Shown here in pieces: positions 10,003 to 55,455 of a DNA stretch of 55,455 nucleotides (within the stretch, counting starts at the first letter, position 1; every line of letters starts with the position of its first letter). The stretch is from positions 1-55,455 of the forward strand of contig JAPLCP010000158.1 of NCBI GenBank assembly GCA_026392155.1. The letters run 5' to 3'. The position numbers were made by a program, and so were the translations under genes. Origin of the DNA: Armatimonadota bacterium. GTDB taxonomy: Bacteria > Armatimonadota > Armatimonadia > Armatimonadales > Armatimonadaceae. The notes under the pieces were generated by a model that saw nothing but the letters and a program-made list of their open reading frames with translations, made no database searches and was not told where the DNA came from.

Positions 10003-10038
10003 GATTGAAAGTTTTATACCACTTTGTGCAAAATTCGG

Positions 10039-10044
10039 GTACAA
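10039..10044 (+). promoter_or_regulatory. -10 box TACAAT for the repeat-protein gene
   Basis: GGTACAAT matches the -10 consensus seen across the window, but here the start codon is about 68 nt away and is preceded by AGGAGG. This is therefore one of the few genes with a real 5' leader. It lies 20-25 bp from the opposed glnD -10 box. Confidence 0.6.
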
Positions 10045-10111
10045 TGCCCGGCAATACGTCCAAAGTGTGATGCTCCCTGAGGATCGGGGAGAATTTAGGA
10101 GGATGAGGTTA

Positions 10112-30460: not shown

Positions 30461-31855
30461 TCAGGCGAGGATCTTCTTCACCACTTCCCCATGCACATCG
30501 GTGAGGCGAAAGTCGCGGCCTGAGTAACGGTACGTGAGTTTTTCGTGGTCGAGGCCGAGGCAGTGTAGGATCGTGGCCTGGAGGTCATGCACATGGACCT
30601 TGTTCTCCGCGACGTGAAAGCCTAAATCATCGGTCGCACCATACGTCAAGCCGCCCTTGATGCCGCCGCCCGCCAGCCACATTGTGTAGGCTTGCGGGTG
30701 GTGGTCGCGGCCTTGCGAGCGGCCCAGCGCGGGGTTGTTCTCCACCATGGGCGTGCGCCCAAACTCACCCCCCCAGACCACCAGAGTCTCGTCGAGTAAG
30801 CCGCGCTGCTTTAAATCTTTGACCAGCGCCGCCGATGCCTGATCGGTCTCACGGCACTTATTTCGGCTCGTCCCCGCCACGTCGGAGTGGGCATCCCAGC
30901 CCTCGTGGTAGATATTGACAAAGCGCACGCCACGCTCGATCATCCGCCGCGCCAGCAGACAAGCACGGGCGAAGCTGGGCTTGTCGGGGTCGCAGCCATA
31001 CATTGCCAGAGTTTCTTTGCTCTCGGATTTTAAGTCCATCAGCTCCGGGGCTGAGGTCTGGAGCTGGAAAGCAAGCTCATAGCTGGCAATGCGCGAGGCG
31101 ATCTCTGGGTCGGAGTCACGTCGGTTTAAGTTTCCCACTAAGTCCAGCGTCTCGCGCTGTAGCTTGGCGTCTACACCCGCCGGGTTGCTGACATCTAAAA
31201 TCGGGTCGCCGGAGTTACGCAGGCGCACGCCCGAGTATTTCGTCGGGAGAAAGCCGCTCGACCAGTTAGCCGCGCCGCCCGAGATTCCCGCTCCCGTGCT
31301 CATCACCACAAAGTCCGGTAGGTTCTTTGCCCCCGTTCCCAGTCCATAGACCACCCACGAGCCCAGCGCGGGCCGCCCTGGCTGGCCGTTTCCGGTGTTC
31401 CAGAAGATCTGCGCGGGGGCATGGTTGAACTGATCGGTGCTCACCGACTGTACCAAGCAAATATCATCGGCGATGCTTCCGAGATGCGGTAGGAGCTCCG
31501 AGAGCTCCATCTGGCACTGTCCGTGCTTTGCGAACTTGAAGCGCGGTCCCAGCACGGCGGCATCGGCGCGAATAAAGGCGTAGCGCTGGTCTTTGTACAC
31601 GGAGGGCGGCAGGGGCTTGCCCTCTAGTTTGACCAGCTCGGGTTTGTAGGTAAAGAGATCGAGCTGCGAGGGAGCACCCGCCATGAAGAGATGGATGACA
31701 TGCTTGGCTTTCGGGCGAGCCAGCCCCCTAGCCCCCGCCGAGCGGGGGAACTCGCTCGTTAGTAGCCCCGCCAGGGCGAGCTTGCCCACCCCAACACCGC
31801 ACTCCTCGAAGAAGTGCCGCCGTGTGAGGCTTAAGTTCCGATTTCGTTCGTTCAT
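30461..31855 (-). CDS. DUF1501 protein, Tat-exported, with in-frame palindrome insert
   Basis: The 464-residue protein begins with a twin-arginine leader (SLTRRHFFEECGVGVGKLAL). It then has the DUF1501 pattern: HVIHLFMAGAPSQLDLF, RFVNIYHEGWDAHSD and VVWGGEFGRTPM. DUF1501 proteins (alkaline-phosphatase-like fold) are the usual partner of the DUF1549/1553 cytochrome-like protein encoded upstream in the same operon (ATGA overlap at 31852-31855). Such pairs are abundant in Planctomycetes, Verrucomicrobia and Armatimonadota and are thought to act on polysaccharide-rich material. The segment around FPRSAGARGLARPK is encoded by a copy of the CCCCCTAGCCCCCG palindrome (31724-31752) inserted just after the leader peptide. 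Confidence 0.93.
   Translation of the reverse strand: MNERNRNLSLTRRHFFEECGVGVGKLALAGLLTSEFPRSAGARGLARPKAKHVIHLFMAGAPSQLDLFTYKPELVKLEGKPLPPSVYKDQRYAFIRADAAVLGPRFKFAKHGQCQMELSELLPHLGSIADDICLVQSVSTDQFNHAPAQIFWNTGNGQPGRPALGSWVVYGLGTGAKNLPDFVVMSTGAGISGGAANWSSGFLPTKYSGVRLRNSGDPILDVSNPAGVDAKLQRETLDLVGNLNRRDSDPEIASRIASYELAFQLQTSAPELMDLKSESKETLAMYGCDPDKPSFARACLLARRMIERGVRFVNIYHEGWDAHSDVAGTSRNKCRETDQASAALVKDLKQRGLLDETLVVWGGEFGRTPMVENNPALGRSQGRDHHPQAYTMWLAGGGIKGGLTYGATDDLGFHVAENKVHVHDLQATILHCLGLDHEKLTYRYSGRDFRLTDVHGEVVKKILA
31724..31752. repeat. Palindrome family copy, in frame inside the DUF1501 gene
   Basis: CCCCCTAGCCCCCGC (to 31738), a CGA loop and GCGGGGG (31742-31748) form a 7-bp hairpin preceded by the family CTAG core. 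On the coding strand it is read in frame and lies in the region between the Tat signal and the folded domain. Confidence 0.75.
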
Positions 31856-34800
31856 CTTTTTACAATCGCCTCGTCGAGGTTCAGAATCGCGCGGGCAAGG
31901 GCAGTCCAGGCGGCTTGCTCGGGCGTTGCGGTATCACTGCCGCAGAGGGCTTTGGGGTTGAGCTCACCGGCGGCGAACCGTGCTTGTTGTTTTTCGTAAA
32001 ATCCCTCTAGTGCCGCAAGCTCGTCCCAGTCCGGTGGGCGGGTGACGACTCGGCGGAAGAGGCGTGAGAGGCGTGTGGCACTCAGGCCCGGCTCTTGATT
32101 GATTTGTTTGCCCAGTGCCTGCGCCGCCTCCATAAAGACCGTGTCGTTGAGAAGCGCGAGGGCTTGCAGGGGCGTGTTGCTCATCTCACGGCGGGGGCAA
32201 GTGGCCTCGCCGCTGGGGGCATCGAAGGTCTGAGAGAGGGCGTAGGGAGCCGTGCGCTTGGCAAAAGTATAGAGGCCCCGCCGGTAGCGGTCTTCTCCTG
32301 TGCTGACATTCCAAGCCAAGGCTCCGTAGGCTCCCTCGGTGGTGACACTGGGCGGCTGCGGCGGGAAGACGCTAGGGCCACCTATCTTGGAGGAGAGCAG
32401 GCCACTGGCGGTGAGCGCATGATCGCGCGCCTGCTCAGCATCGAGGCGCACGCGGGGGCCACGTGAGAGCAGCTTGTTCTCCGGGTCTTTCGCGAGTGCT
32501 TGGGGCGTGATTTTTGATGACTGCCGGTAGGTCGCTGCCATCACGATGCGCTTGTGGAGCTTCTTCTGGCTCCAGCCACTTTGTATAAACTCCACCGCGA
32601 GGTTATCCAGTAGCTCGGGATGGGTGGGAGGCGTGCCTTGATAGCCAAAGTCCTCGGTGGTCTTGACGATCCCCTTGCCAAAGAACGCCGCCCAGGCCCG
32701 GTTGACAATCACCCGCGCCGTGAGCGGGTTCTGGGAACTCACCAGCCAGCGGGCAAAGGCCAACCGATCCCCTCCTCCCCTTCCCTTCTCCCAAGCTTGG
32801 GAGGAGGGACTGAGGGAGGAGGGGATTCCCACGGTTACTCTCTCGGTGGGCTGGAGGAACTCGCCGCGGTTGTGGATGAACGTGGCGCGGGGGTTCTCCT
32901 TGGGGCGCTCGATAAAGACAAGAGTCGTCGGGGGTTGCGGGAGGGATCTACGGAGGGCCTCCAGCTCAGTGCGGGCACTGGCGAGCTCGGGGGCGACGCG
33001 GACAAACTGAGTACGGAGCGCCGCCTCGTCGTTGCGTGCCAGCGCGTCTTCCAGCGTGGGAAGCAGTGCAAGAAAAGCTCCCCCACCGCCGAAGGCGGAT
33101 TGGAGTCCCGCTTCGCGGGTGGGGGCGGGGGGGGCATCCGTGGTTACCGAGAGGCGGAACTTGCCCAGTCCGGCAGTGTAGTACTGCTCAAAGACCATCG
33201 AGAGTGCGAGTGCGTTTGTTTCGAGCGGCTTGTCGAATGCAAAGACGGCCACGCTGGGCTTGCCTTGGGAGCCATTGATACTCCAGCCCGTCTGCGGGTT
33301 GGTATCGAGCGCATTTTGTGCATTGCCGACATTGGAGACTCCTTTAACGAGCTTTCCCGCACTAGTGGTCAGAGTGCTCAGATGGAAGTCCCCGTGCGGG
33401 CCTTCGTAGGCAACACGCCCAGGTCCATGATTCGGCAGACGGTCGTCGGGGAGGGCTTCGAGGCGCACCGCAGTAACTCCCTGAGGCAGGTTAGCCAAAG
33501 AAACCTCGTAGACATCGCGCTTGGTGCCATCGCCGCTCACATAGACAACGCCATCGGGCTGGATCGTGAGCAGCGGCAGGTTTGAGCTTGCCTTGATGGG
33601 CTTGACCACCGCCCAGCGCACGGCGGCGGCTTGCTGCGCGGTCTTCCAGGTCACAAAGGCGCGCTCAAAGGCCTCTTTCCGGCGCGACTCGATGGGTCGT
33701 GGATCTGAGTCGGTGCCAGCGGTACCCAGGCTCAGGCGGAACTTCCCCAGCGTGTGCTGGCCGCCATAGTCCTGCTTGAGGGTGACCGTCCACTTCTTCG
33801 CCGCGAGTGGCTTGGCTAGATGAAACGTCGCGGTCCGGTTCACATTCCAGTTGCCCTCGGCATGGATCGCCCAGCCGGTATTGGGCTTGCCATCGAGTGC
33901 CGCCTGCGCCGAGAAGCCCTCTTGTGCGAAGTCGTGCTCGCCGCGTACTAGCTTTACCGGCTTGCCATCTGCCTTGACCTCGAACTCGGTGAGCACAAAG
34001 TTCCCATGCGCCGTGCGTCCCGGCCCCGTTGCCCCAAGTGTCGGATCGGTGAGGGCTTCCAGGCGAAGTGCAGAGACAGGCTCGGCACTACCCACCAGAG
34101 TAAGCGTGTAGGTATCCTTGTCCGGGTTGGTGCCCGAGATAAAGACCGCGCCATCGGGTCGGACTTCCGCCTTGGCCCCCGAGGTAACTTTGGCATCCTC
34201 CATAGGCGTCTTCTCCCAGCGAAGCGGCACAGCAATCGGCCATTTTTCGGCGAGCGTGGCCTCACGCTCCGTGATCGTCTTCTCAACCTCGGCACGTTTT
34301 TTGGCCAGCTCAGGCGTCACCACATCCAGCTCAGGCTCCTCGGTGTTGTCTAAGAACGCCATGAGCTGGTAGTACTCTTTGTGGGTGATAGGGTCGTACT
34401 TGTGGGTGTGGCACTGCGCACACTGGATCGTCAGCCCCAGCCAAGTTGCCCCCGTTGTGCCCATGCGGTCCACCATGGCGTAGTAGCGGTACTCTAGCGG
34501 GTCAATGCCCCCCTCTTCGTTGAGCATCGTGTTGCGGTGAAAGCCCGTCGCGATCTTGTCGTCAAGCGTCGCATTGGGCAGTAAGTCCCCCGCGAGCTGC
34601 TTGATCGTGAACTGATCAAAAGGCATGTCGTCGTTGAGAGCTTTTATCACCCAGTCCCGCCACGGCCAGACCGTCCGCGGCTTGTCTTTTTCGTAGCCAT
34701 TCGTGTCGGCATAGCGCGCCAGATCCAGCCACTTACGCGCCCAGCGCTCACCATAGCGCGGGCTTGCCAGCAATCTGTCCACCAATTTTTCGTAGGCATC

Positions 34801-35367
34801 GGGCCGCGTGTCTTTAACAAAGGCCTCAGTCTCTTCTAGCGTCGGTGGCAGCCCAATTAGATCCAAGCTCACCCGACGGATCAGTGTGTACTTATCGGCT
34901 TCCGGCTGGAGCGCCAGCCCTAGCGGCTTGAGGCGAGCAGAAACGAGTGTGTCAATAGTATTCCCCCCCCTGCCCCCGCCCGGCGGGGGGGTTAGGGGGG
35001 GCACGAACGCCCAGTGCTTCTCGTACTTAGCACCGCTGGCCACCCAGCGCTGAAGAATGCTCTTTTGCGTGGCACTCAGCGGCTTGTTGGTGTGCGCGGG
35101 TGGCATCTGAAGCGCATTGCCGCTGGGTTTGGCAATCCGAGCCAGCATCTCTTTGAGCTTCGCAGTGCCCGGCGACTGATCCAGCCGCAAGCCTGCCTCG
35201 CGCTTTTTATCGTCGGGGCCGTGACACTTGAGGCAGTGATCGGCCAAGATCGGCCGCACCTCGCGGTTGAAGTCGGGTGCCGCCATCAGCTTAGGCTTGG
35301 TCTGTGCCAGCGCCGCTGCGGCGACAAGTCCGGTCAGGGCGAGGATTCCCGCCAGCTTTCGTTTCAT
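31852..35367 (-). CDS. DUF1549/DUF1553 (PSD1-type) c-type cytochrome-like protein
   Basis: The 1171-residue secreted protein has a signal peptide (MKRKLAGILALTGLVAAAAL) and a cytochrome c-like heme motif CLKCHG (C-x2-C-H) near residue 45. A DUF1549 domain follows (RRVSLDLIGLPPTLEE, ARYADTNGYEKDKPR, DQFTIKQLAGDLLPNATLDD). Two beta-rich segments come next (LRLEALTDPTLGATGPGRTA; LRLEALPDDRLPNHGPGRVA). A DUF1553 domain ends it (NPLTARVIVNRAWAAFFGKG, GEATCPRREMSNTPLQALAL). It is translationally coupled to the DUF1501 gene downstream. Three palindromic repeats (32767-32826, 33080-33125, 34963-35001) are translated in frame as low-complexity linkers. Confidence 0.93.
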   Translation of the reverse strand: MKRKLAGILALTGLVAAAALAQTKPKLMAAPDFNREVRPILADHCLKCHGPDDKKREAGLRLDQSPGTAKLKEMLARIAKPSGNALQMPPAHTNKPLSATQKSILQRWVASGAKYEKHWAFVPPLTPPPGGGRGGNTIDTLVSARLKPLGLALQPEADKYTLIRRVSLDLIGLPPTLEETEAFVKDTRPDAYEKLVDRLLASPRYGERWARKWLDLARYADTNGYEKDKPRTVWPWRDWVIKALNDDMPFDQFTIKQLAGDLLPNATLDDKIATGFHRNTMLNEEGGIDPLEYRYYAMVDRMGTTGATWLGLTIQCAQCHTHKYDPITHKEYYQLMAFLDNTEEPELDVVTPELAKKRAEVEKTITEREATLAEKWPIAVPLRWEKTPMEDAKVTSGAKAEVRPDGAVFISGTNPDKDTYTLTLVGSAEPVSALRLEALTDPTLGATGPGRTAHGNFVLTEFEVKADGKPVKLVRGEHDFAQEGFSAQAALDGKPNTGWAIHAEGNWNVNRTATFHLAKPLAAKKWTVTLKQDYGGQHTLGKFRLSLGTAGTDSDPRPIESRRKEAFERAFVTWKTAQQAAAVRWAVVKPIKASSNLPLLTIQPDGVVYVSGDGTKRDVYEVSLANLPQGVTAVRLEALPDDRLPNHGPGRVAYEGPHGDFHLSTLTTSAGKLVKGVSNVGNAQNALDTNPQTGWSINGSQGKPSVAVFAFDKPLETNALALSMVFEQYYTAGLGKFRLSVTTDAPPAPTREAGLQSAFGGGGAFLALLPTLEDALARNDEAALRTQFVRVAPELASARTELEALRRSLPQPPTTLVFIERPKENPRATFIHNRGEFLQPTERVTVGIPSSLSPSSQAWEKGRGGGDRLAFARWLVSSQNPLTARVIVNRAWAAFFGKGIVKTTEDFGYQGTPPTHPELLDNLAVEFIQSGWSQKKLHKRIVMAATYRQSSKITPQALAKDPENKLLSRGPRVRLDAEQARDHALTASGLLSSKIGGPSVFPPQPPSVTTEGAYGALAWNVSTGEDRYRRGLYTFAKRTAPYALSQTFDAPSGEATCPRREMSNTPLQALALLNDTVFMEAAQALGKQINQEPGLSATRLSRLFRRVVTRPPDWDELAALEGFYEKQQARFAAGELNPKALCGSDTATPEQAAWTALARAILNLDEAIVKR
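32767..32826. repeat. Palindrome family copy, in frame inside the DUF1549/1553 gene
   Basis: ATCCCCTCCTCCC (32767-32779) is perfectly complementary to 32814-32826, and the centre (32788-32803) is itself a 16-bp perfect palindrome around AAGCTT. It encodes IPSSLSPSSQAWEKGRGGGD just before the conserved DUF1553 segment LAFARWLVSSQNPLTARV. Confidence 0.85.
33080..33125. repeat. Two-hairpin palindrome, in frame inside the DUF1549/1553 gene
   Basis: An outer stem CCCCCA/TGGGGG (33080-33085, 33120-33125) encloses two hairpins, CCGCC-GAA-GGCGG (33086-33098) and CCCGC-TTC-GCGGG (33107-33119), joined by ATTGGAGT. It is translated as APTREAGLQSAFGGGG. The layout matches the intergenic copy at 48695-48733. 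Confidence 0.8.
34963..35001. repeat. Palindrome family copy, in frame near the N-terminus of the DUF1549/1553 gene
   Basis: A C7 tract, TGCCCCCGCC and CGGCGGGGG, then GTTAGGGGGGG, form a nearly continuous inverted repeat. It is read in frame as LTPPPGGGRGGNT between the cytochrome-like segment and the DUF1549 domain. Confidence 0.8.
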
Positions 35368-38894: not shown

Positions 38895-39911
38895 ATGAAC
38901 AACGTACTTTTAACCGGCCTTTTGGCCTTTGGCCTGCTGGGCCAACAACAACCTGCAAGCGCTCCGTGGTCGATGGACCTGAGCCAGTTCCAACCCTACG
39001 GCTACAACAAAGGCGAGGGAAACTATGTGATCGCCCCGATGTATAGCAATGCGCCGGAGCTGACGGCGCAAGACAATGTGCCCAAGGGCAAGGTCTCCGA
39101 CTTTATTGTCAAGTCCACTGATAGCCCGCTCTTTCCGGGGATCGCGAAGAATAAGCCCGGTGAGGTCGTGCCCTACGAGCGGCGCTGCTGGGTCTACATC
39201 CCCGCGCAGTACCAGCCCGGCAAGCCTGCCCCGCTACTCGTGACCCATGATGCCATGGGCCGCGGCGAGCTTCCGACGATCTTAGACAACATGATCGCGG
39301 CGAAGCGGCTCCCGGCGATGGTGGTGGTCTTTATCAGCTCCGGCGGCGGCGATGCGCAGGGCAGTGAGCGCGGCCTGGAGTACGACACCGTCTCCGGCAA
39401 GTACGCGGAGTACATTGAGAGTGTGATCCTGCCGCGCGTGACCCGCGACTACGGCGTGACGTTTAGCAAAGACCCGGATGCCCGCGCCACGATGGGCTGT
39501 AGCTCGGGCGCGGCGGCGGCGTTCTCGATGGCCTGGTTCCACCCGGAGCTCTACCACCGCGTGATTAGCTACTCGGGGACGTATGTGGATCAGCAGTCGC
39601 CCAAGAACCCCGAGTCGCCGCGTGGTGCCTGGGAGTACCATGCGAGCATTCTTCCGAAAGAGAAGCGTAAGCCGCTGCGTATCTGGATGCACGTGAGTGA
39701 GAACGACCTGCGCTTCCGTGACCCGGAGGAGACGCTCCATAACTGGGTGATGGCCAACGACCGCTTCGCCAGGGTGCTGAAGGCGAAGAAATACCCCTAC
39801 CAGTTTGTCTTCTCCAAAGAGTCCGGCCACTGCGATGGCCGCGTCGAGCGCCAGACCCTCGCCCAGGCGCTGGAGTTTGCCTGGAAGGGCTACAAAGACC
39901 GGGGGCGGTAG
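38895..39911 (+). CDS. Secreted enterochelin-esterase-like alpha/beta hydrolase
   Basis: The 338-residue protein has a signal peptide (MNNVLLTGLLAFGLLG) and an esterase-D/Fes-type alpha/beta hydrolase domain: RRCWVYIPAQYQPGKPAPLL, the nucleophile elbow MGCSSGAAAAFSMAW (serine in G-x-S-x-G), then WMHVSENDLRF (Asp region) and ESGHCDGRVERQTL (His). It may cleave acyl or feruloyl esters on plant-derived material, but the substrate is not evident. It probably shares a transcript with the upstream propeller gene (38 bp apart). Confidence 0.9.
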   Translation: MNNVLLTGLLAFGLLGQQQPASAPWSMDLSQFQPYGYNKGEGNYVIAPMYSNAPELTAQDNVPKGKVSDFIVKSTDSPLFPGIAKNKPGEVVPYERRCWVYIPAQYQPGKPAPLLVTHDAMGRGELPTILDNMIAAKRLPAMVVVFISSGGGDAQGSERGLEYDTVSGKYAEYIESVILPRVTRDYGVTFSKDPDARATMGCSSGAAAAFSMAWFHPELYHRVISYSGTYVDQQSPKNPESPRGAWEYHASILPKEKRKPLRIWMHVSENDLRFRDPEETLHNWVMANDRFARVLKAKKYPYQFVFSKESGHCDGRVERQTLAQALEFAWKGYKDRGR

Positions 39912-39913
39912 CG

Positions 39914-39967
39914 TTCCCTCCTCCCCCAGCCCCTCCTCCCAAGAGCCGTGGGAGGAGGGGAGTTTTT
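39914..39967 (+). terminator. Palindrome family copy acting as a terminator after the esterase gene
   Basis: CCCCTCCTCCC (39930-39940) pairs perfectly with GGGAGGAGGGG (39950-39960) around a 9-nt loop, followed by AGTTTTTG. The CCCTCCTCCCC half-motif is also repeated in tandem on its left side. Confidence 0.85.
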
Positions 39968-39985
39968 GTTTGTAGGTGACCTGCC

Positions 39986-41035
39986 ATGGCAAAGATCACG
40001 ATTGAGCTTTCCGATGAAGCCTTAGCTCTGCTGAGGGAGCGTGGTCTCCGGCGTGGTGAAAAGGTGGAGAATTACGGAGCTGTGATGTTACAATACGCTC
40101 TGCTCTGCTCCAACCACGACTCCATCCCCGATGTCATCAATCTACGCAGTCACTTCAACATCATCGATTTTGTTCAACAGGAGATCGAGAGTCTCCCACC
40201 GAATACCCCGGCTTCCCAACTTCGTCGCCATACCCAGGATATGCAGTTCTCGGTTCAGCACATTCGTAAGAGCATTGAGTACCTCCTGGCCATTCAGATC
40301 GAAGATAGGACGCTTCAGCACTCTCCCTTTTCGCCGGTTTCGGTGAGTATCTTCTCTCTCCGTGCCCTGCTGGAAAAAATCGTAGATATAGATCGAAGGT
40401 CAACCTACTTCAAACCTAACCATGCGCTTTACCTTGAGCTTGTGGACGATGTTCCAGATGCGTTTCCTTGCGATGAGGACAAGCTGGAGCAGATTCTCCA
40501 TAACCTGATTGGCAATGCCCTCAAGTTCTCACCTGAGGGAGGAACGGTCACGCTGAGAGTGCAACGCGAATCTTCCAACACCATTCTCTTTTCCATCCAC
40601 GATCAGGGCATCGGAATGAGTCGAGAGTTCCTTCCTCTTTTCGGGGAAAAGTTTAGCCGCCCCCCGGAGTCAGAAACGCGCGGTTTGAAAGGAGCAGGGA
40701 TTGGAGCGTTTTTGTGCCAGATGTTTGTCAAGCTGATGGCAGGGCAGCTCTGGGCGCACTCCGATGGGCTGGGTAAAGGCTCTACAGTCTTCGTCAGGCT
40801 TCCCTACGATCCCCTGCTCGACGATACCCAGCTCAGGGATAACATCACCCAGCTACGGCACTGGCGCATCAAGCTCTCTGCGCTCCTCGCCGAACTGGAC
40901 GCTTTTCCCACCAAGCACTACCGCTTTGATGCTCGCACCCACGCCGACTTTGCCCAGCTTGTCCACACCGAGCTAGAGCAGATGCAGGCGTTTCTAGTGC
41001 AACTGGAGAAAGACCATGCCGCAGATCACGATTGA
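39986..41035 (+). CDS. RHH-like/HATPase fusion protein A (histidine-kinase-like ATPase)
   Basis: The 349-residue soluble protein has three parts. Residues 1-40 (KITIELSDEALALLRERGLR then a helix) match the beta-helix-helix layout of a ribbon-helix-helix DNA-binding domain. Residues 50-130 are helical, with no H-E-L-R-T-P phospho-acceptor box. Residues 150-272 form a HATPase domain with an intact N box (ILHNLIGNALKFSPEGG, Asn177), DQGIGM (206-211), GLKGAGIGAFL (233-243) and GLGKGSTVFV. A helical C-terminal extension of about 75 residues follows. No membrane segment, sensor or receiver domain is present. It overlaps the next gene by 20 nt, and that gene has the same layout. Confidence 0.8.
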   Translation: MAKITIELSDEALALLRERGLRRGEKVENYGAVMLQYALLCSNHDSIPDVINLRSHFNIIDFVQQEIESLPPNTPASQLRRHTQDMQFSVQHIRKSIEYLLAIQIEDRTLQHSPFSPVSVSIFSLRALLEKIVDIDRRSTYFKPNHALYLELVDDVPDAFPCDEDKLEQILHNLIGNALKFSPEGGTVTLRVQRESSNTILFSIHDQGIGMSREFLPLFGEKFSRPPESETRGLKGAGIGAFLCQMFVKLMAGQLWAHSDGLGKGSTVFVRLPYDPLLDDTQLRDNITQLRHWRIKLSALLAELDAFPTKHYRFDARTHADFAQLVHTELEQMQAFLVQLEKDHAADHD

Positions 41036-42071
41036 CCTTTCCGACGAAGCCCACTTTTTGCTCCAGCGGTGGGCGGAGCACGAGAAGCTCGTGCTAGAGG
41101 ACGAGGCCGCGCAGATGATGAACCGGGCACTGGCGGCGAGCCTACCAGAAGGGCTGGCGCAGTGGCTGGAGCTTCGTACCCCGGTGACCGCGATCAAGGG
41201 CTTTGTCTCCACGTTGCTTATGGACGAAGATGAGACGATGTTTGCACACTCCGACCGCATGGAGTTTTTGGAGATCATGGACAAAGAATGTGACAAGATC
41301 CTGAACTTTCTACGGGTTATTAGACTTGAGCGGTTCCCAGAGCGCTTTCATGCCGAACCAACATCGCTTCAAGCGGTTGTGGAAGCCGTTCGCGACCGTG
41401 CCTTGCGCTCCCGCTACCTGAAACCAACCCATCGTTTTGCTCTAGAGCTCGGCGATAATCTCCCAGAGACCTTTCTCACCGACGAGGAAGGACTGGTAGA
41501 TGTACTCGGAGAGTTTATGGATAGGGCGATAGAGTACTCGCCTGAGGGTGGTGAGGTGCGCCTGATAGTCGTCACCACGGTGGGGGGAGGACTCGCGTTT
41601 ACCATCCAGGATCAGGGGCTGGGAATGACATCTGAGTTCCTCCTAAAAATCTCCCAACGCCTGAACGCCCACCAGGCTCCCGAGCAAAGAGACAACCGTG
41701 ATGAGCGGATTATCGGGCGAGCCGAGCCGAGTTTCTACGAGGAGTGGGCTTTTGCTCGCTGGCACGGGGGGCAGTTCATGGTTGATTCGGCGGGACTAGG
41801 CAAAGGCACCACGGTGACGCTTACTCTCCCGTCGCTTGGTGCCCCTTCCCGAAAGCTGGCCGACGATCCCTCGTACCGCAAGCTTGTCTCGTCACTTCGA
41901 GAAAGGTGCATAGCAATCCTGGCAGATGTCGAGCGTCTGACTCTCCAACACGCTCAATTCGATGATGAGGCACGCAAGACGCTCGCCAAGGCGATACAAA
42001 CGGAGTGCGATGCACTTACGGCACTCGCACAGTCTCTGTCGCGGAGCGACATTTCAGCCGCAGGCGCTTAG
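41016..42071 (+). CDS. RHH-like/HATPase fusion protein B with degenerate kinase motifs
   Basis: The 351-residue paralogue of protein A has the same order. It has an N-terminal RHH-like segment (QITIDLSDEAHFLLQRWAEH), a DHp-like helix with LELRTPVTAIKGF (residues 51-63), a HATPase domain (about 140-272) and a C-terminal helical extension. The phospho-acceptor His of the H-E-L-R-T-P box is Leu51, and the N-box Asn is replaced by Arg170 (EFMDRAIEYSPEGG). DQGLGM (199-204) is kept, but the G1 glycine-rich lid is not recognisable. Catalytic activity is therefore unlikely. It probably pairs with protein A as a non-catalytic partner (inference). Confidence 0.8.
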   Translation: MPQITIDLSDEAHFLLQRWAEHEKLVLEDEAAQMMNRALAASLPEGLAQWLELRTPVTAIKGFVSTLLMDEDETMFAHSDRMEFLEIMDKECDKILNFLRVIRLERFPERFHAEPTSLQAVVEAVRDRALRSRYLKPTHRFALELGDNLPETFLTDEEGLVDVLGEFMDRAIEYSPEGGEVRLIVVTTVGGGLAFTIQDQGLGMTSEFLLKISQRLNAHQAPEQRDNRDERIIGRAEPSFYEEWAFARWHGGQFMVDSAGLGKGTTVTLTLPSLGAPSRKLADDPSYRKLVSSLRERCIAILADVERLTLQHAQFDDEARKTLAKAIQTECDALTALAQSLSRSDISAAGA

Positions 42072-42080
42072 ACGCCGTTT

Positions 42081-43436
42081 TCAACCGGCGGCTTTTCCGA
42101 CGGGGCGGACGCCTTTCCCGATGCGGTTAGGGCCGTCGCCGAGGTCTTCGCGGACTTTTTCGGCGAGGGCAAGGAGGCGCTTGAGGATCTCGGGGTGTTG
42201 GGCAGCAAGGTCGGTGGTCTCTCCCGGATCGGCGACCAGATCAAAGAGCAGCGGGCGGGTGATCTTGGCCATTTTATAGCTCACGGGCTTGCCGCCCCGC
42301 GCGGTCTCGGGGTAGGGGCCGAGGCTGCGATAGTTTTGCGGGAGCATGACCTTCCACTTCCCAGAGCGCACGGCCTGGAGCTCGTTGGTGTTGTAGTAGA
42401 AAAAGTACGCCTCCTGCGGGCTCTTGGCGCGCGTGTCGCCTGAGAGCAGAGGCCCGATGTCCTTCCCGTCTAGCTTGTTTTTCGGCAGCGGTGCTCCCGT
42501 CAGCTTGGCAATTGTGGGCAGGAGATCAATGGTCATCGCGGGCTCAGAAATCACGCTCCCCTTCTGAATCTTGCCCGGATGGCGTGCCACAAACGGGACG
42601 CGGATGCCGCCGTCCCAGCACGTGCCCTTGCCCTCGCGCAGGGGCCCCGCGCTCCCGGCGTGCTCGCCGTAGCTGAGCCAGGGGCCGTTGTCCGACGTGA
42701 AGATCACGAGCGTGTCGCGCTCTGCGCCCGTTCGTTTCAGCGCCGCCAAGAGCTGCCCCACAGAGTCGTCGAGCTCCTCGATCACATCGCCAAACGTGCC
42801 GCGCTTGGAACGGCCAATCCACTTCTTGCCGGGAGCCAGCGGGACGTGCGGCATGGCGTGGGCGAAGTAGAGAAAGAACGGCGTCTTCTGTTTTGCGTGC
42901 TTCTCGATAAAGCCCACGGCGCGATCTGTGTAGCGCTGCATGAGCGTGCCCATCTGCTCGATATTCTCGATGGTCTGCACGGGCTTTTCACCGTCCATAA
43001 GAGGCAGTGGCGGGTAGGCACGGGGCGTGTCCGGGTGATTGGGCCACATGTCGTTGGAGTACGGCAGTCCCAGCCACTCGTCGAAGCCGTGGCGGGTCGG
43101 GTTGAACTCCGGCAGGTGCCCCAAGTGCCACTTGCCCACCATCGCCGTCGCAAAGCCCTTCGCCTTCAGCACCTGCGGCAGGAGCGTCTCTTTGTCGCTA
43201 ATCCCGATCTTCGCACCCGGTCCCAGCGCCCCCTGGATCCCCACTCGCCCCGAGTAGCACCCTGAGAGCAAGGCCGCCCGGCTCGCTGAGCACACCGGCT
43301 GCGCGACATAGAAGTCCGTAAAGCGCACGCCGTCGCGCGCCAGAGAGTCAATGTGGGGCGTCCGAATGTCTTTGGCCCCAAAGCAGCCCACATCGGCATA
43401 CGCGAGATCGTCGGCGAAGATCAGAACGATATTCAT
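42081..43436 (-). CDS. Sulfatase (arylsulfatase family), no signal peptide
   Basis: The 451-residue protein starts directly in the sulfatase core (MNIVLIFADDLAYADVGCFG; Asp9 and Asp10 as metal ligands). The formylglycine site is CSASR (Cys49), a C-x-A-x-R type. It continues with MVGKWHLGHL, HAMPHVPLAP and VIFTSDNGPW. No signal peptide is present: a TAAAAT box ends 6 nt before the ATG and a TAA stop lies in frame four codons upstream. A cytoplasmic location is thus predicted, unless another start is used. A formylglycine-generating enzyme would be needed and is not in the window. Confidence 0.93.
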   Translation of the reverse strand: MNIVLIFADDLAYADVGCFGAKDIRTPHIDSLARDGVRFTDFYVAQPVCSASRAALLSGCYSGRVGIQGALGPGAKIGISDKETLLPQVLKAKGFATAMVGKWHLGHLPEFNPTRHGFDEWLGLPYSNDMWPNHPDTPRAYPPLPLMDGEKPVQTIENIEQMGTLMQRYTDRAVGFIEKHAKQKTPFFLYFAHAMPHVPLAPGKKWIGRSKRGTFGDVIEELDDSVGQLLAALKRTGAERDTLVIFTSDNGPWLSYGEHAGSAGPLREGKGTCWDGGIRVPFVARHPGKIQKGSVISEPAMTIDLLPTIAKLTGAPLPKNKLDGKDIGPLLSGDTRAKSPQEAYFFYYNTNELQAVRSGKWKVMLPQNYRSLGPYPETARGGKPVSYKMAKITRPLLFDLVADPGETTDLAAQHPEILKRLLALAEKVREDLGDGPNRIGKGVRPVGKAAG

Positions 43437-43458: not shown

Positions 43459-46400
43459 CTACTCCACAGAGTGCGTGTTGTCGTCGTGCTCCCGGTCTAG
43501 TAGGTGGTAGGCGGGATCGACGGTGATATGACGGGGGGAGAACTCCGTTTCAAAGACAAGGGTCTGACGGGGCTGCTGGAGCGTGGCACGGAGCGTGACG
43601 GCATCCTCACCGGTCCAGAGTGTCGCAAAGACGATGTCATGAAGGGGGGCAGGAGTCTCGTTGCCCTGACCGTCGGAGAAGACTTTCTTGGCCGTCACGA
43701 CTACCTCGGTGCGCCAGCGCTTCTTGCTGAGCTGCTTTTTCTTGACCGAGACGACTTTCAGATCACAGAGCGTGATCTTCTCAAAAAGCTCCGTGATCCG
43801 TGTTTTATGGGCGGGCAAGTTTACCTTGAGGTTCTCGACCAAGTTAGCTGCCGTGGGGTACGGCGGCTCTTTGAACGCCAGCACTTTTAAGTAGCTGCTG
43901 AGCACCTTGTCAAAGTGCTCCCCGGCGAGCCAGTGTAGCTCGTGGAAGGCGAGGCCACCTTTCTGGTAGCAGATATAGGGCTGACGGCGCGTGGAGATGA
44001 GGGGCTGCTCCTCCGTACGGTCCTGGCCACGGCCCTTCAAGTAGGCATCGGCGGCACGCTTATTGACTTCGCCGGCCTCGTTGCCCGCCTCGACCGCCAC
44101 TCGGAGCGCGGTGTACTCGGCAAGCGACTCGGAGAGCACCTCGGAGCCGGGCAGGTTCGCTCCCGTGAGCTGGTGCGCCCACCACTGGTGCGCCACTTCA
44201 TGCGCCGTGACATAGAACGGGGTGTCGAAGTCGTCTTTACCGACACTCAGCGTAAAGCCCCCCGCCTCAGAAAACGGGATTGTTCCCGCAAAAGCCTGGG
44301 CAGCGATACTTGCCCCCCGCGCGGGAAACTCGACAATCCGTAGCTCGGAGAAGGGATAGGGCGCGTACGTCTGGGAGCAGAACGCCAGCGCGTCCTTGGC
44401 ACCGCTCAGCATGCGCTTGACATTCCAGGGGTGCCCGGCGTGGTAGTAGACCGTGATAGGCGTGCCTTTGTAAGTCGTTTTCTGTGTCGCGTACTTGCCC
44501 GAGACCACGGCCCAGAAGTAGCGGACAACATGGTTTGACTCGTAGCGGAAGCAGCGCCGTCCGTTTTCTTGCCACTCCCGAGTCAGCCTACCCGGCGCGA
44601 GTGCAAGCTGATCCGGCGCGGTTCGTACGGTCATCGCCAGCTGCACCCAGTCCGAGTCACCGCCGATATAGGTCTGGTAGCAGCCAATGCGCTCGGGAAG
44701 CTCTTTCCATGCGCCCAAGTTCTGCTTCTTACGCTCCGCCGCATCCGTCAGCTCCATCACGGACTGGTAGCCGATCCGAGGCGCAAGATTGGAGAGAAAG
44801 CTCCCATTGGCGGCGATATCGGTGCGCGGGCCACGGGCGGCAAAACCCGGTTTGTCCCAGGCGACCGTAAAGTCTAGGGTCATGGTCTGGCCGGGTGCAA
44901 GCGGCGTGGCGAGCTTCCAGACCTGCATCCCAAGGCGAGTGTCTTCTTGGATGCGAGTTGCAGGAGCCCCGAAGGTAATTTTCTGAGGGTCGAGCTCGTT
45001 GTCGTAGCTCAGGAGTAGCTCGGGGATGGGCTTGTCCGATTTATTTTTGAGCGTGTAGCGCCCCGAAATGCGAAACGTGCGCCGCTCCGGCCAGAGAGTC
45101 ACATCCAGATCGGCAGCCGTCATCTTGGGCTGGGGCAGCTCTAGCCACTTCGCTCGATACGTCCGCTCGTAGTCCGCCCGCGCTTGACTCTGGCTATTCT
45201 CGTTCTGGAACCGATGAATGCCGTGGAAGTTATAGAGCAGCAGCCCCGTGCTCAGCGCACAAAGTACGGTCAGCAGTGCAACTCCGCCACGGTTCTGCGG
45301 GCGCTTGGGGAGGGCAAGGGCGAGCATCCAAAACGCCACCAAGAGCCAGTGCGCTCCCATCCCCAAAAGCTGCGTCTGGTAGGCGCTAAAGCCATCCAGA
45401 TCGGAGTAGTAGGCATCGCCCAGTGTCCCTAAATCCAGCAGCGGGTGCTCCCAGCCCAGCGCGGTAAAGGCGGTGGGAACCAGCACGATCAGCACCACCA
45501 CGAGGTGCCCGACAAACTTATTGGGGACGCGGTTGTGCACCAGAAACGCCAGCGCCGAGAAGCTAAAGAGCGAGACTCCCGTGATCCCAAAAATCCCCAT
45601 CAGGTAGGCACTGCCCTCGGGAGCCACGCCTCCGGCGCGCTGCTGGAGCATCCCGATAACGGAGTAGAAAATCCCTGCCAAGATCAAGGAAAACTGGAGC
45701 GCCACAAAGCGCGCCAGCAGCGCTGCGGTGCGCGAGAGGGGCAGCGCCTCGACAATCGGGGCGACCCGCAGAATCCGATCCTGCCAGCAGAGCTCCCCCG
45801 CATAGATCGCCGCCACAAAGACAAAGAGCGCCCCGTACATGTCGCTCACTTCTTTGAGCACATGGCTATTGGTAGGCAGAAGGGGCGTCCCCGTGAAGCC
45901 CTCTTCTTTCGAGGCCAGCATCGCAAAGGCGATCAGCCCGAAGGCAAGAAAGAGCCAGTAAGGCCAGGCACAGAGGATGAAGCGGGTGTGGAAGCGCACC
46001 AAGTGCAGAAAGCTACGCCACGCCTGAGGCTGAGCATGGGGCTTAGGCACGACTCCCTGCGGCGGCGGCGTTCTATCCCCAGCGCTTCGGCGAGGAAGCT
46101 GCGGCGCGAGGGCGCGGAACCGAAACAGAAGCCCTCCCAGAGCCACCACTCCCAGCCCAATCCCCGACCAGAGGGCGCGGTTGAGAAGCAGCAAGCCATC
46201 GAGCGAGGGCAGCGAGGTGTTGGTCTGCGCCGGTGACCAGTAGCGTGTTTCCGTGGTTAAAAGCGCCATGCCATAGGGGTCGAGAATCGCCGCCGCCCCC
46301 CGGCTCCCGATGGCGGTGGCAAGCCCCGCCCCGATCAGATAGAGCACAAAGAGCCCCACTCCCATAGAGTACACGGCAAAGAGATTTCGAGTGAGTGCCC

Positions 46401-46848
46401 CGGCGACAAAGAAAAGCGCACTGGTGAGCAGTAGGTTGGGCAAGAGAAAAACGAAGTAGGAAAACGCATAGGGCGCGAGGCGAAACGGGCCGAGGTGGGT
46501 CGAGTCGCCCGGAATCACGGTTCCGATCCAGAACCCCAGAGGCAGTGCCAAAAACAGCACCCCGGTCAGGATAAAGCTGCCCAGATAGCGTCCGAAGAAA
46601 TACTGCCAGGCTTTTAGGCGCGACGTGAAGAAGAACTCGTGCACTCGAAGTTCAAAGTCGCGCAGAATCCCGGTGCCCGCAATGGCGGCCACAATCGGCC
46701 CGGCGATCAGGCAGAACCCAGCGGCAAACTGCACCCCGCGCTGGCTGCTCATCACAGCGGCGGCCACGAAGAGGATGAAGAGAAACTGTCCCCAGGTGGC
46801 TCCCTGCCGTAGCCGTAGCATCAATTCCTGCTTTATAACGGTGAACAT
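43459..46848 (-). CDS. ABC-2-type permease fused to M1 aminopeptidase
   Basis: The 1129-residue protein has an N-terminal half of about 540 residues with roughly twelve hydrophobic helices in the style of ABC-2 permeases (WGQFLFILFVAAAVM, LGSFILTGVLFLALPLGFWI, FALAFLVHNRVPNKFVGH-type loops). The C-terminal half carries an extracytoplasmic M1 metallopeptidase domain with the zinc motif HEVAHQWW (about residues 882-889), the distal glutamate in LSESLAEY, and the propeptide-like beta domain (LDVTLWPERRTFRISGRYTL). Fusions of this kind are known in several phyla. The matching ABC ATPase gene is not adjacent. A 22-bp perfect palindrome separates it from the kinase gene. Confidence 0.9.
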   Translation of the reverse strand: MFTVIKQELMLRLRQGATWGQFLFILFVAAAVMSSQRGVQFAAGFCLIAGPIVAAIAGTGILRDFELRVHEFFFTSRLKAWQYFFGRYLGSFILTGVLFLALPLGFWIGTVIPGDSTHLGPFRLAPYAFSYFVFLLPNLLLTSALFFVAGALTRNLFAVYSMGVGLFVLYLIGAGLATAIGSRGAAAILDPYGMALLTTETRYWSPAQTNTSLPSLDGLLLLNRALWSGIGLGVVALGGLLFRFRALAPQLPRRSAGDRTPPPQGVVPKPHAQPQAWRSFLHLVRFHTRFILCAWPYWLFLAFGLIAFAMLASKEEGFTGTPLLPTNSHVLKEVSDMYGALFVFVAAIYAGELCWQDRILRVAPIVEALPLSRTAALLARFVALQFSLILAGIFYSVIGMLQQRAGGVAPEGSAYLMGIFGITGVSLFSFSALAFLVHNRVPNKFVGHLVVVLIVLVPTAFTALGWEHPLLDLGTLGDAYYSDLDGFSAYQTQLLGMGAHWLLVAFWMLALALPKRPQNRGGVALLTVLCALSTGLLLYNFHGIHRFQNENSQSQARADYERTYRAKWLELPQPKMTAADLDVTLWPERRTFRISGRYTLKNKSDKPIPELLLSYDNELDPQKITFGAPATRIQEDTRLGMQVWKLATPLAPGQTMTLDFTVAWDKPGFAARGPRTDIAANGSFLSNLAPRIGYQSVMELTDAAERKKQNLGAWKELPERIGCYQTYIGGDSDWVQLAMTVRTAPDQLALAPGRLTREWQENGRRCFRYESNHVVRYFWAVVSGKYATQKTTYKGTPITVYYHAGHPWNVKRMLSGAKDALAFCSQTYAPYPFSELRIVEFPARGASIAAQAFAGTIPFSEAGGFTLSVGKDDFDTPFYVTAHEVAHQWWAHQLTGANLPGSEVLSESLAEYTALRVAVEAGNEAGEVNKRAADAYLKGRGQDRTEEQPLISTRRQPYICYQKGGLAFHELHWLAGEHFDKVLSSYLKVLAFKEPPYPTAANLVENLKVNLPAHKTRITELFEKITLCDLKVVSVKKKQLSKKRWRTEVVVTAKKVFSDGQGNETPAPLHDIVFATLWTGEDAVTLRATLQQPRQTLVFETEFSPRHITVDPAYHLLDREHDDNTHSVE

Positions 46849-52726: not shown

Positions 52727-54139
52727 TCATGAAGGCTCGTAGCCGAAGAAGCCGCGCTCTTTGATGAGCTGAGCGACAGCGACAGGTACCATGCTCTCCC
52801 AGCTTGTGTCGCTCTCTCGAATACGCATCAAAACATCCCGTGAGAAGATAGGCAAGTACTCTTTGTTGTAGAAGTCAAGGCTCTGGACATGGTCATTTTC
52901 CACCATGTGCTCATAGAGGCTCTGTAGATGCGGGGCCACTTTCAGCTTCTCGACCGTGATTAAGTGGCGGCTGGACTTATCCATCAAGGGATAGATATAG
53001 AGCTTGAGGTCGTTTTTGAAGAGCCGCCCAAACGACTCCAGAATCCCACCTTCGAGATCCTCGTAGAACCGCTCATCAAAGAGATCCCGTAAGCTGGGCA
53101 CGCCCATGGTAATGCCAATCGGCTGCTTGGTGTAGCGTCGCAGGTAGGTCGCGAGGCGGTGGTACTCGAAGTAGTTGGAGATAAGCACGGTGGCTCCCGT
53201 AGCCGCTAAGACATCAGCACGGGCCAGAAAGTCCGCGTGGTCGATCTCGCCGCTGGCCAGTAGGTTTTTCATGGTGATCTCAAAGAGAGTCACCACCTCG
53301 CTATCATCAGCGGCATTGTCCATAAACTGCTGGCGAGCGCACTGAATCATGTCCACGTTTACATGCGTCACCGGACGGAACGAGCCACGCTCTAGGAGAA
53401 TACGCTTTTTGCGCAGAACCTCCGACGGCTGGAGCACCTCGCCGCTGGCAGAGAACAGCGCGGCATTGGAGAGCCCAAGCTGGACGAGTTTTAGGGCTAT
53501 TAAGCGATGATCAACTCCCTCGAACGACGAACCACTGAACTTAACCATGTCCACTTCGATACGCGACACGGTCAGGCTATCTAAAAGCGAGCTCAGAATC
53601 GTGTCGGGGTCTGCGGTGCGCAGAAGTGCCGCGTGAATGAGATTGACCCCTACAATGCCAAGTGCCTCTTGCTGGCTCACGTGGTCTTTATCCAGCATAC
53701 GGACATGAATGACAACCTGGCTGGGCTCACTCTGCCCCTCCGACTGAAACTTGATCCCCAGCCAGCCATGACACTCATTGGTACCGTGAAAGTTACGAGT
53801 CGCTACGGTATCCGAGAAAACAAAGAAATCCGTGTTCTCCCCACGTGCCAAGCCAAGACGCTCTAGGAGCAAGTTGTACTCGTAGTCGAGCATTGTCTGG
53901 AGTCGCTCGCGGGAAACGTAGCGCGGCGAGGGACCGTAGATCGCATCGCTGACCGTCATGTCGTAGGCAGAGATCGACTTGGCAATTGTCCCCGCAGCGC
54001 CACCCGCCTGGAAGAACCACCGAACCACTTCCTGACCCGCACCGATCTCCGCGAAAGTTCCATAGAGACGGGGGTTTAAGTTAACGGTCAGTGCCTTCTG
54101 CTGTGTATCGGCGGTGCGGCGGTCTATTTTTGACTCCAT
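52727..54139 (-). CDS. Conserved protein of unknown function, paralogue 1
   Basis: The 470-residue soluble protein contains no domain I can name with confidence. Its most conserved-looking segments are YGTFAEIGAGQEVVRWFFQA, AYDMTVSDAIYGPSPRYVSR, SQQEALGIVGVNLIHAALL, ERGSFRPVTHVNVDMIQCA and DLEGGILESFGRLFKNDLKL. I recall similar proteins in Cyanobacteria and other phyla, often with misleading automatic names such as TonB-dependent receptor; no signal peptide or barrel signature is seen here, so that name would be wrong. A Shine-Dalgarno TAGGAG lies just before the ATG. A second copy follows at 54238-55455. Confidence 0.8.
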   Translation of the reverse strand: MESKIDRRTADTQQKALTVNLNPRLYGTFAEIGAGQEVVRWFFQAGGAAGTIAKSISAYDMTVSDAIYGPSPRYVSRERLQTMLDYEYNLLLERLGLARGENTDFFVFSDTVATRNFHGTNECHGWLGIKFQSEGQSEPSQVVIHVRMLDKDHVSQQEALGIVGVNLIHAALLRTADPDTILSSLLDSLTVSRIEVDMVKFSGSSFEGVDHRLIALKLVQLGLSNAALFSASGEVLQPSEVLRKKRILLERGSFRPVTHVNVDMIQCARQQFMDNAADDSEVVTLFEITMKNLLASGEIDHADFLARADVLAATGATVLISNYFEYHRLATYLRRYTKQPIGITMGVPSLRDLFDERFYEDLEGGILESFGRLFKNDLKLYIYPLMDKSSRHLITVEKLKVAPHLQSLYEHMVENDHVQSLDFYNKEYLPIFSRDVLMRIRESDTSWESMVPVAVAQLIKERGFFGYEPS

Positions 54140-54237: not shown

Positions 54238-55455
54238 TCATGCAGGCGGCTCTGGCACGGAAACGGAGGAACAGCCAAAAAAACCACGCTCTTTAATCAG
54301 TGCCGCGACAGCCGTAGGAACCGCACTCTCCCAGCTAGAGTCTCCCTGCTCAATCTTACGGAGTACATCGCGGGAGAAGATATGCAAGAACTCGCGGTTG
54401 TAGAAGTCGAGGCTCTGGATATGGCCATTCTCCACTAAGTGCTCGTAGAGGCTCTGTAGATGCGGAGAGACTTTGAGCTTTGGCACCGTAATGAGCTGAC
54501 GGCTGGACTTGTCCATGAGAGGATAGACAAAGAGCCGCAGATCGTTCTTGAAGAGCCGCCCAAACGACTCCAGAATCCCGCCCTCTAAGTCTTCGTAAAA
54601 GCGCTCCTCAAACAAATCTTTCAAGCTGGGAATCCCCATCGTGATCCCAATGGCGAGCTTGGTGTAGCGCCGCAAGTACGCTGCCAAGCGGTAGTACTCG
54701 AAGTAGTCGGAGATAAGCACGGTAGCTCCCGTAGCCGCTAAGACATCGGCGCGGGCCAGAAAGTCCGCGTAGTCAATCTCGCCGCTGGCCAGTAAGTTCT
54801 TCATGGTGATCTCAAAGAGCACCACCGTTTCTTCGTCGCCGCCCACGCTATCGTTAAACTGCTGCTTGGCACAGTGAATCATGTCGAGATTGACATGGGT
54901 CACGGGCCGGAACGAGCCACGCTCCACCAAGATACGCTTCTTGCGGAGCACCTCCGATGGCTGGAGCACCTCGCCATCGGCGGAGAAGAGCGCCGCGTTG
55001 GAGAGCTCTAGCTGCACGAGCTTTAGGGCCATCAGGCGGTGGTCAATTCCCTCGAACGCGGGACCACTGAACTTGACCATGTCCACTTCAATGCGCTCCG
55101 CGGTCAGGCTGTCGAGAAGTGCGCTGAGGATCAGATCGGGGTTATCAAAGTGGAGAAGCGCCCCATGGATCAGATTGACCCCCACAATGCCCAGTGCCTC
55201 TTGTTGGCTGATATTGTCCGTATCCAACATCCGAACGTGAATCACGACTTGGCTGGCCTCTAGCTCAAAGGGACGCTGGAACTTGACTCCTAGCCAGCCG
55301 TGGCAGTCGTTGGTGCCGGAGAAGTTTCTCGCCGCCACGGTATCAGCGAAGACAAAGAAGTCGGTGGTCGGGCCACGGAGTGGGCTGAGACGCTCGCGAA
55401 GAAGCGAGAACTCGTAGTCGAGCATTGTCTGGAGTCGCTCGCGGGAAACATAGCG
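54238..55455 (-). CDS. Conserved protein of unknown function, paralogue 2 (N-terminus cut off)
   Basis: This tandem paralogue of the gene at 52727-54139 is cut by the right edge. The frame continues upstream beyond 55425 through RYVSRERLQ in the same register, so its real start is outside the window. About 405 residues are visible and align along their length with paralogue 1. Conserved segments include SQQEALGIVGVNLIHGALL, ERGSFRPVTHVNLDMIHCA and DLEGGILESFGRLFKNDLRL. The last residues differ (EPPA against EPS). The 98-bp gap between the copies contains the promoter and Shine-Dalgarno of paralogue 1. Confidence 0.8.
   Translation of the reverse strand, partial: RYVSRERLQTMLDYEFSLLRERLSPLRGPTTDFFVFADTVAARNFSGTNDCHGWLGVKFQRPFELEASQVVIHVRMLDTDNISQQEALGIVGVNLIHGALLHFDNPDLILSALLDSLTAERIEVDMVKFSGPAFEGIDHRLMALKLVQLELSNAALFSADGEVLQPSEVLRKKRILVERGSFRPVTHVNLDMIHCAKQQFNDSVGGDEETVVLFEITMKNLLASGEIDYADFLARADVLAATGATVLISDYFEYYRLAAYLRRYTKLAIGITMGIPSLKDLFEERFYEDLEGGILESFGRLFKNDLRLFVYPLMDKSSRQLITVPKLKVSPHLQSLYEHLVENGHIQSLDFYNREFLHIFSRDVLRKIEQGDSSWESAVPTAVAALIKERGFFGCSSVSVPEPPA

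Follow-up and report, generated by a model that had tools for sequence, protein, structure and literature searches.

The window, a stretch of 55,455 nucleotides spanning positions 1 to 55,455 of contig JAPLCP010000158.1 (assembly GCA_026392155.1) from an Armatimonadota bacterium, carries a pair of overlapping genes, here called A and B, between an esterase gene and a convergent sulfatase gene (Table 1). Neither reading frame contains an internal stop, and the two ORFs, their 20-nt overlap and the ITIELSDEA and ITIDLSDEA motifs of the A and B N-termini are all present as an earlier, sequence-only reading of this DNA had described them. The TGA stop of A falls within the Ile-Asp codons of the predicted ribbon-helix-helix (RHH) strand of B. 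Equal synthesis of the two proteins, which had been read from the overlap, does not follow, as B is preceded by its own GGAG roughly 8 nt upstream. Pfam recognises a HATPase_c domain (PF02518) above the cut-off in both proteins (E 1.2e-24 for A and 8.7e-10 for B) and a HisKA domain in B (E 4.4e-6) and not in A. Domain searches, Pfam included, returned no sensor (PAS, GAF), transmembrane or receiver domain in A or B, bearing out the earlier reading on this point. GC3 is 0.62–0.64 for A and B, compared to 0.76–0.82 for the neighbouring genes. A terminator-like hairpin separates the esterase gene from A, with the start codon of A positioned ~16 nt beyond it; the hairpin scan that located it is no proof of function, the chance mean being 3.3 sites in the stretch.

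Other genes in the window also drew our attention. Two tandem genes on the minus strand (52727-54139 and 54238-55425) encode products 79% identical over 384 aa that have no Pfam match, nor does a 402-aa protein encoded on the plus strand (9980-11188) that contains a long Gly/Ser/Met repeat stretch (GGPSGMSGSM...). On the minus strand, a DUF1501 gene adjoins a PSCyt1/PSCyt2/PSD1 (DUF1549/DUF1553) gene (30461-35367), a gene pair better known from Planctomycetes, and positions 43459-46848 encode a 1129-aa protein which combines ABC-2 type membrane parts with an M1-type peptidase domain.

Table 1. Positions of the A/B gene pair, its domains and neighbours in the window, and of the paralogues in the sister genome (L055 and L054).
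Feature	Position	Strand	Description
Esterase gene	38895-39911		upstream neighbour of A
Terminator-like hairpin	39930-39970	+	12-bp stem, T-rich tail; between esterase gene and A
Gene A	39986-41035	+	349 aa; head RHH-like, DHp1 not recognisable, CA (ATPase) intact, hairpin resembling a DHp at the C-terminus
A residues 1-44	39986-40117	+	predicted RHH (antitoxin)-type N-terminus
A residues 163-275	40472-40810	+	HATPase_c; N, G1, G2 and G3 boxes intact
A residues 279-345	40820-41020	+	helical hairpin, DHp-like, without His
A/B overlap	41016-41035	+	20 nt, ATGCCGCAGATCACGATTGA; same length and pattern at both sister-array junctions
Gene B	41016-42071	+	351 aa; head RHH-like, Leu for His in DHp1, CA degenerate, hairpin resembling a DHp at the C-terminus
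B residues 1-44	41016-41147	+	predicted RHH (antitoxin)-type N-terminus
B codon 51	41166-41168	+	CTG (Leu) where the phospho-acceptor His is expected
B residues 58-96	41187-41303	+	DHp alpha1-loop-alpha2 segment, 39 residues
B residues 156-272	41481-41831	+	degenerate HATPase_c; N170 = Arg and loss of G2; G1 and G3 retained
B residues 281-342	41856-42041	+	DHp-like hairpin, without His
Sulfatase gene	42081-43436	-	convergent neighbour of B
P1	L055:8413-9399	-
P2	L055:7368-8432		same tandem array as P1
P3	L055:6590-7387		265 aa; lacks C-terminal part; same tandem array as P1
P4	L054:5568-6551		directly behind resident kinase HK1 in the sister genome

The sequence-only reading had proposed a search for RHH and HATPase architectures in other genomes, and homologues were found in a sister genome (G001) of the same genus. 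There, three tandem paralogues, P1–P3, occupy the syntenic place, flanked by the orthologous esterase and sulfatase genes, and a fourth, P4, stands apart from the array. The P1/P2 and P2/P3 overlaps are exactly 20 nt each, and at all three junctions in the family the upstream gene ends in a TGA embedded in the ATT-GA codons (Ile-Asp/Glu) of the following head. Because the architecture and the 20-nt overlaps recur in the sister genome, the A/B pair is more than a chance arrangement. Strong hairpins recur as well: the first family gene begins ~16–20 nt past one at all three places (upstream of A, and at L055 9400-9564 and L054 5480-5567), although the hairpin upstream of P1 lacks a T-run. Hairpins this close before the first genes make the promoter and expression level of the family puzzling.

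All six family members are intact ORFs of 265–354 aa in which stops are absent. Among 291 genomes of the phylum, a family profile found full-length matches only in the two genomes of this genus, with E ≤ 2.3e-106 for the members versus 1e-64 for the next matches, which are ordinary kinases aligned over the core only. A copy of P4 was not found in the genome that carries A and B; a contig scan with A matched only two unrelated kinases; viral contigs yielded no relative; and plasmids yielded only distant kinases, none of which covered 80% of B. The neighbouring genes are 90–95% identical between the two genomes, in comparison to 45% for B and P3, the most similar two family members, which demonstrates that the family evolves fast. 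In every family pair tested, differences are more frequent at third codon positions than at the first two, which favours coding constraint. The family is small, fast-evolving and, so far, confined to one bacterial genus; with two genomes only, its conservation over time is poorly sampled.

The assignment of the N-terminal head relies on profile comparisons. A 46-residue profile constructed from the N-termini of all six members matched, as the top hit in the PDB, ParD of RK2 (2an7, E 0.019, residues 1–31 on 1–31) and, as the third, the RHH protein HP0222 (E 0.14). Pfam ParD was detected on P1 below the curated cut-off (E 0.0015); no Pfam RHH domain matched A or B themselves, so that the RHH assignment depends on the profiles and the paralogues. 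Elsewhere in the phylum, the head profile matched mainly short antitoxin-like ORFs of ~90–170 aa and a few longer frames. A PIN-like toxin ORF was present directly downstream of the head match in 7 of the 20 neighbourhoods read, one of these toxin calls being confirmed by Pfam (5e-10) and the others judged from sequence. Because the collected antitoxins were picked by this very profile, the hhalign score that the head obtains against them is inflated and is not independent proof. In the AlphaFold model of A, residues 1–9 are coil and residues 10–23 and 27–41 are helical, with low confidence at the N-terminus (pLDDT ~30–46), and the isolated N-terminal fragment of B was modelled as coil followed by one long helix. 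An RHH-like start, as noted in the sequence-only reading, is backed by the sequence profiles, the ParD match of P1 and the PIN-adjoining relatives, although structure prediction did not settle the fold. Taken together, the profile evidence offers good support for an RHH antitoxin-type head, and this head is retained in every copy (6/6). The sister genome also encodes a 300-aa protein (L105:4142-5044, G001:C8) in which the same antitoxin-type head is followed by HEAT-like repeats; this would represent a second reuse of the head in the genus.

Inspection of the kinase motifs revealed what each protein has kept. In A, Ile51 occupies the position of the phospho-acceptor His, and the ATP site is assembled from N177, D206/G208/G210, G236/G238/G240 and G265; the claim that A lacks a phospho-acceptor and has intact N, D and G boxes is confirmed, with N, G1, G2 and G3 all present. 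For B, Leu51 and Arg170 had been read correctly, but the supposed absence of a clear G1 lid had not: G1 (DQGLGM, D199/G201/G203) and G3 are intact, and it is the G2 lid motif that is lost (R235/E237/S239). A complete ATP site (N, G1 and G2) is present in A and absent in B, and A is the only one of the six family members to possess one; P1 is without G1 and G2, and P2, P3 and P4 are without the N-box Asn and G2. Five of the six members have lost the phospho-acceptor. The exception is P2, which keeps the His (HSLHTAVTSIKGF) followed by Ser, not Glu, and bears Ser in place of the N-box Asn. P3, the closest paralogue of B, carries Lys at the His position and Asp at the N-box Asn position, and the first DHp (DHp1) is unrecognisable in A, P1 and P4. 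No homologue with both the His and the Asn was found; such a homologue is what the sequence-only reading had named beforehand as the observation that would speak against B being a pseudokinase. By its motifs, B is supported as a kinase core without catalysis, as in a pseudo-histidine kinase.

The retained ATP site of A bears on one explanation that the earlier reading had raised, that of a DNA-binding, ATP-dependent switch that does not phosphorylate. Here, an A–B heterodimer would sit on an operator through its RHH heads, and ATP binding at the CA domain of A would alter affinity, with no phosphotransfer. Besides the RHH-type head and the intact ATP site, structure prediction fits this idea: the AlphaFold model of A, built from a two-row alignment, is confident for the CA domain only, and this domain resembles ATP-bound kinase structures. 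However, no member of the sister array possesses a complete ATP site, and no operator-like word of at least 8 nt common to the regions upstream of A, P1 and P4 was found. We consider such a switch unlikely. With the ATP site complete in A alone, the family is not ATP-dependent, and the ATP switch fails as a general mechanism (complete ATP sites in 1/6 members) even as it may apply to A.

Progressing further from the CA domain, the helical C-terminus that had been described as common to A and B is indeed there; in the model of A, helices are predicted at residues 281–306 and 316–347, and a DHp-like C-terminal hairpin is present in all family members except P3. In a single hhalign comparison, a profile of the five family C-termini aligned to a DHp profile of 40 kinases with a score of 27.6 (E 9e-5). 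None of 200 column shuffles reached this score (maximum 19.3), the reversed profile scored 8.9, and other domains scored 8.7–13.9 (coiled coil 13.9, PAS 12.0, GAF 9.2, with CA also within this range). When the C-terminal profile was used in an independent genome scan, several of the weak matches outside the family fell in kinase DHps. The C-terminus of the family is likely a second DHp that has no His; the five-sequence profile is thin, which leaves this assignment likely and not certain.

The closest relative of the family core is a resident GAF-PAS-HisKA-HATPase histidine kinase, WalK/PhoR-like and encoded behind pilT-pilC, with copies HK0 in this genome (G000:C91) and HK1 in the sister genome (G001:C1) that are 86% identical. 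Core identity to the resident kinase is 48–50% for A and 40% for B. In a maximum likelihood tree, the family is positioned close to kinases from this genus and from the related genus g5, on very long branches, which render its exact placement unsure. These comparisons assign the kinase core of the family to the lineage of the resident PilT/PilC-linked kinase. The DHp loop DEDGTMFAH is shared with this kinase; the GAF and PAS domains of the kinase have no counterpart in the family, which instead possesses the RHH head, the second DHp-like hairpin and the loss of catalysis.

An OmpR-type regulator is encoded behind the kinase and P4 in the sister genome (L054:6609-7313, plus strand); it is 89% conserved in this genome, but at another place, where it stands alone (G000:C61:2432-3136, L117). 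Pfam recognises only its DNA-binding part and not the N-terminal receiver part, making it possibly a pseudo-receiver protein. A conserved operon of P4, the regulator and the kinase was rejected, given that the regulator lies elsewhere in this genome and a P4 copy was not found here.

Identity to the resident kinase is not evenly spread along the B-type proteins. The 39-residue segment corresponding to B residues 58–96, which, as established for HK853, carries the dimer and regulator-docking surface of the kinase, is 90% identical to the resident kinase in P2, 79% in P3 and 74% in B, as opposed to 22%, 22% and 34%, respectively, for the rest of the core (Fisher test, 2e-15, 5e-11 and 9e-6). Orthologues of the kinase retain 84% identity in the same segment in genus g5 and 53–66% in more distant genera. 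Of the five HK853 specificity sites, P2 shares 5/5 with the resident kinase, B 4/5 and P3 3/5, which is weak evidence for specificity as these sites are largely conserved across the kinases of the phylum. Gene A displays the reverse pattern, with 15% identity in the DHp segment and 47% in the rest of the core. Taken together, a pattern of complementary decay emerges from the sequence comparisons: B, P2 and P3 keep the DHp surface while their CA domains decay, and A keeps a CA domain predicted to be ATP-competent while its DHp1 decays.

Synonymous codons within the segment are close to a random choice (for P2 against HK1, 21 of 34 codons are identical where 15.8 are expected), which indicates constraint at the protein level or, at most, that the segment was converted long ago. 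A fresh gene conversion was rejected on these synonymous sites; an older one may have taken place. Such an older conversion is part of the explanation by which the family consists of decaying duplicates, kinase copies drifting to loss in which it would have preserved the DHp segment. The very long branches, the loss of different motifs in each copy, the lower GC3 of A and B and the start of both arrays just past hairpins would all fit with decay. Yet the six ORFs have remained free of stops, third positions are the most changed, the head is found in all copies, and the overlap and synteny have been maintained between species; together with the near-random synonymous sites of the DHp segment, these observations make simple decay improbable.

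Another explanation holds that the proteins are autoregulatory remnants, with the head repressing its own operon in the manner of an antitoxin and the kinase parts surviving as a scaffold for stability or dimerisation, any two-component link being absent. The head is most closely related to antitoxins that adjoin PIN toxins, and the array encodes no toxin; no toxin gene adjoins A/B or the sister array, the neighbours in both genomes being the esterase and sulfatase genes. The CA parts are also strongly diverged. Left unexplained is why the DHp segment alone stays 74–90% identical to the resident kinase, and we give this explanation little weight. The same segment, together with the retained His of P2 (HSLHTAVTSIKGF), could alternatively be taken to mean that phosphotransfer persists: the resident kinase of some species would phosphorylate P2-like members, which would serve as an RHH-tethered phosphotransfer step. 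We find this highly improbable, in that Ser and not Glu follows the P2 His and the His is absent in B, P3, A, P1 and P4; with the His absent in both A and B, a phosphotransfer reading cannot apply to the pair in the window.

We tentatively favour a model in which A and B are RHH-headed pseudo-histidine kinases, the sensor having been replaced by the head, whose binding to the parent kinase, or to the regulator of that kinase, would involve no phosphorylation. The RHH head and the DHp helices would dimerise the family proteins. The B-type proteins would then pair with the resident kinase as DHp–DHp heterodimers, or dock the response regulator of this kinase, with no phosphate passed, and would damp or redirect the resident kinase pathway much as RetS does with GacS or DivL with DivK. 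The RHH head would anchor the complex on DNA, its own operon at the least, and A would provide nucleotide-dependent control, in this species only. With DHp1 unrecognisable in A, P1 and P4, the heterodimer idea extends to these three only if the DHp-like part at the C-terminus substitutes, and is otherwise limited to B, P2 and P3. A more elaborate form of this model, which we regard as conceivable but doubtful, is that of a DNA-tethered decoy pair that would intercept the parent kinase or regulator, with degeneration split between the partners and a second DHp-like part added.

There are precedents for the favoured model. RetS pairs with GacS via a DHp–DHp heterodimer (PMC12148439), and DivL, a kinase-like protein that acts without phosphorylating, docks DivK~P (PMC4211667). 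Structures of both were recovered when A was matched by sequence and by fold, and both are kinase-like, as is the family; unlike the family, they possess sensor domains and neither an RHH head nor a second DHp, and the partner binding demonstrated for them is inferred for the family. In Corynebacterium glutamicum, a ChrS pseudokinase variant with an inactivated CA domain still affects a paralogous two-component pathway, for which the DHp is needed (PMC9491836); this variant is a full-length sensor kinase mutated in the laboratory and, unlike the family, has no DNA-binding head. With RHH antitoxins such as ParD of RK2 and the FitA/VapB-like proteins, the likeness is restricted to the N-terminal 40–46 aa, in profile and in predicted strand-helix-helix order; the antitoxins continue into a short toxin-binding tail, whereas the family continues into a 300-aa kinase core and the toxin is absent. 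Arc-type RHH-HisKA-REC proteins have been reported in Lokiarchaeum (PMC5847659). These also join an RHH to a histidine-kinase module, a likeness of architecture only; they are archaeal and combine HisKA with a receiver, whereas the bacterial family combines a degenerate HisKA with HATPase and has no receiver.

No RHH-HATPase protein was found in the literature searched, nor was a genus-restricted tandem family with an RHH, a degenerate HisKA, a HATPase and a second DHp-like part found in the sequence libraries or literature searched. Pseudo-histidine kinases and RHH proteins are each known kinds. As judged from the predicted domains, then, the combination of RHH, degenerate HisKA, HATPase and second DHp-like part appears to be new, and its components are of kinds already known. 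The pseudo-histidine kinases compared here (RetS, DivL, ChrS) are sensor proteins, while the family is cytoplasmic with a predicted antitoxin-type DNA-binding head. If the favoured model is true, the family would also exemplify an uncommon bacterial reuse of an antitoxin head as the DNA-binding part of a regulator, with its only parallel in the literature being the archaeal RHH-HisKA-REC proteins. As the parent, the copies and the synteny are all visible, a decoy solution to paralogue interference is directly testable in this genus. The locus would then offer a snapshot of a two-component enzyme turning into a one-component, non-phosphorylating regulator; the family may have converted an enzyme that passes phosphate into a regulator that acts on the parent kinase and does not phosphorylate.
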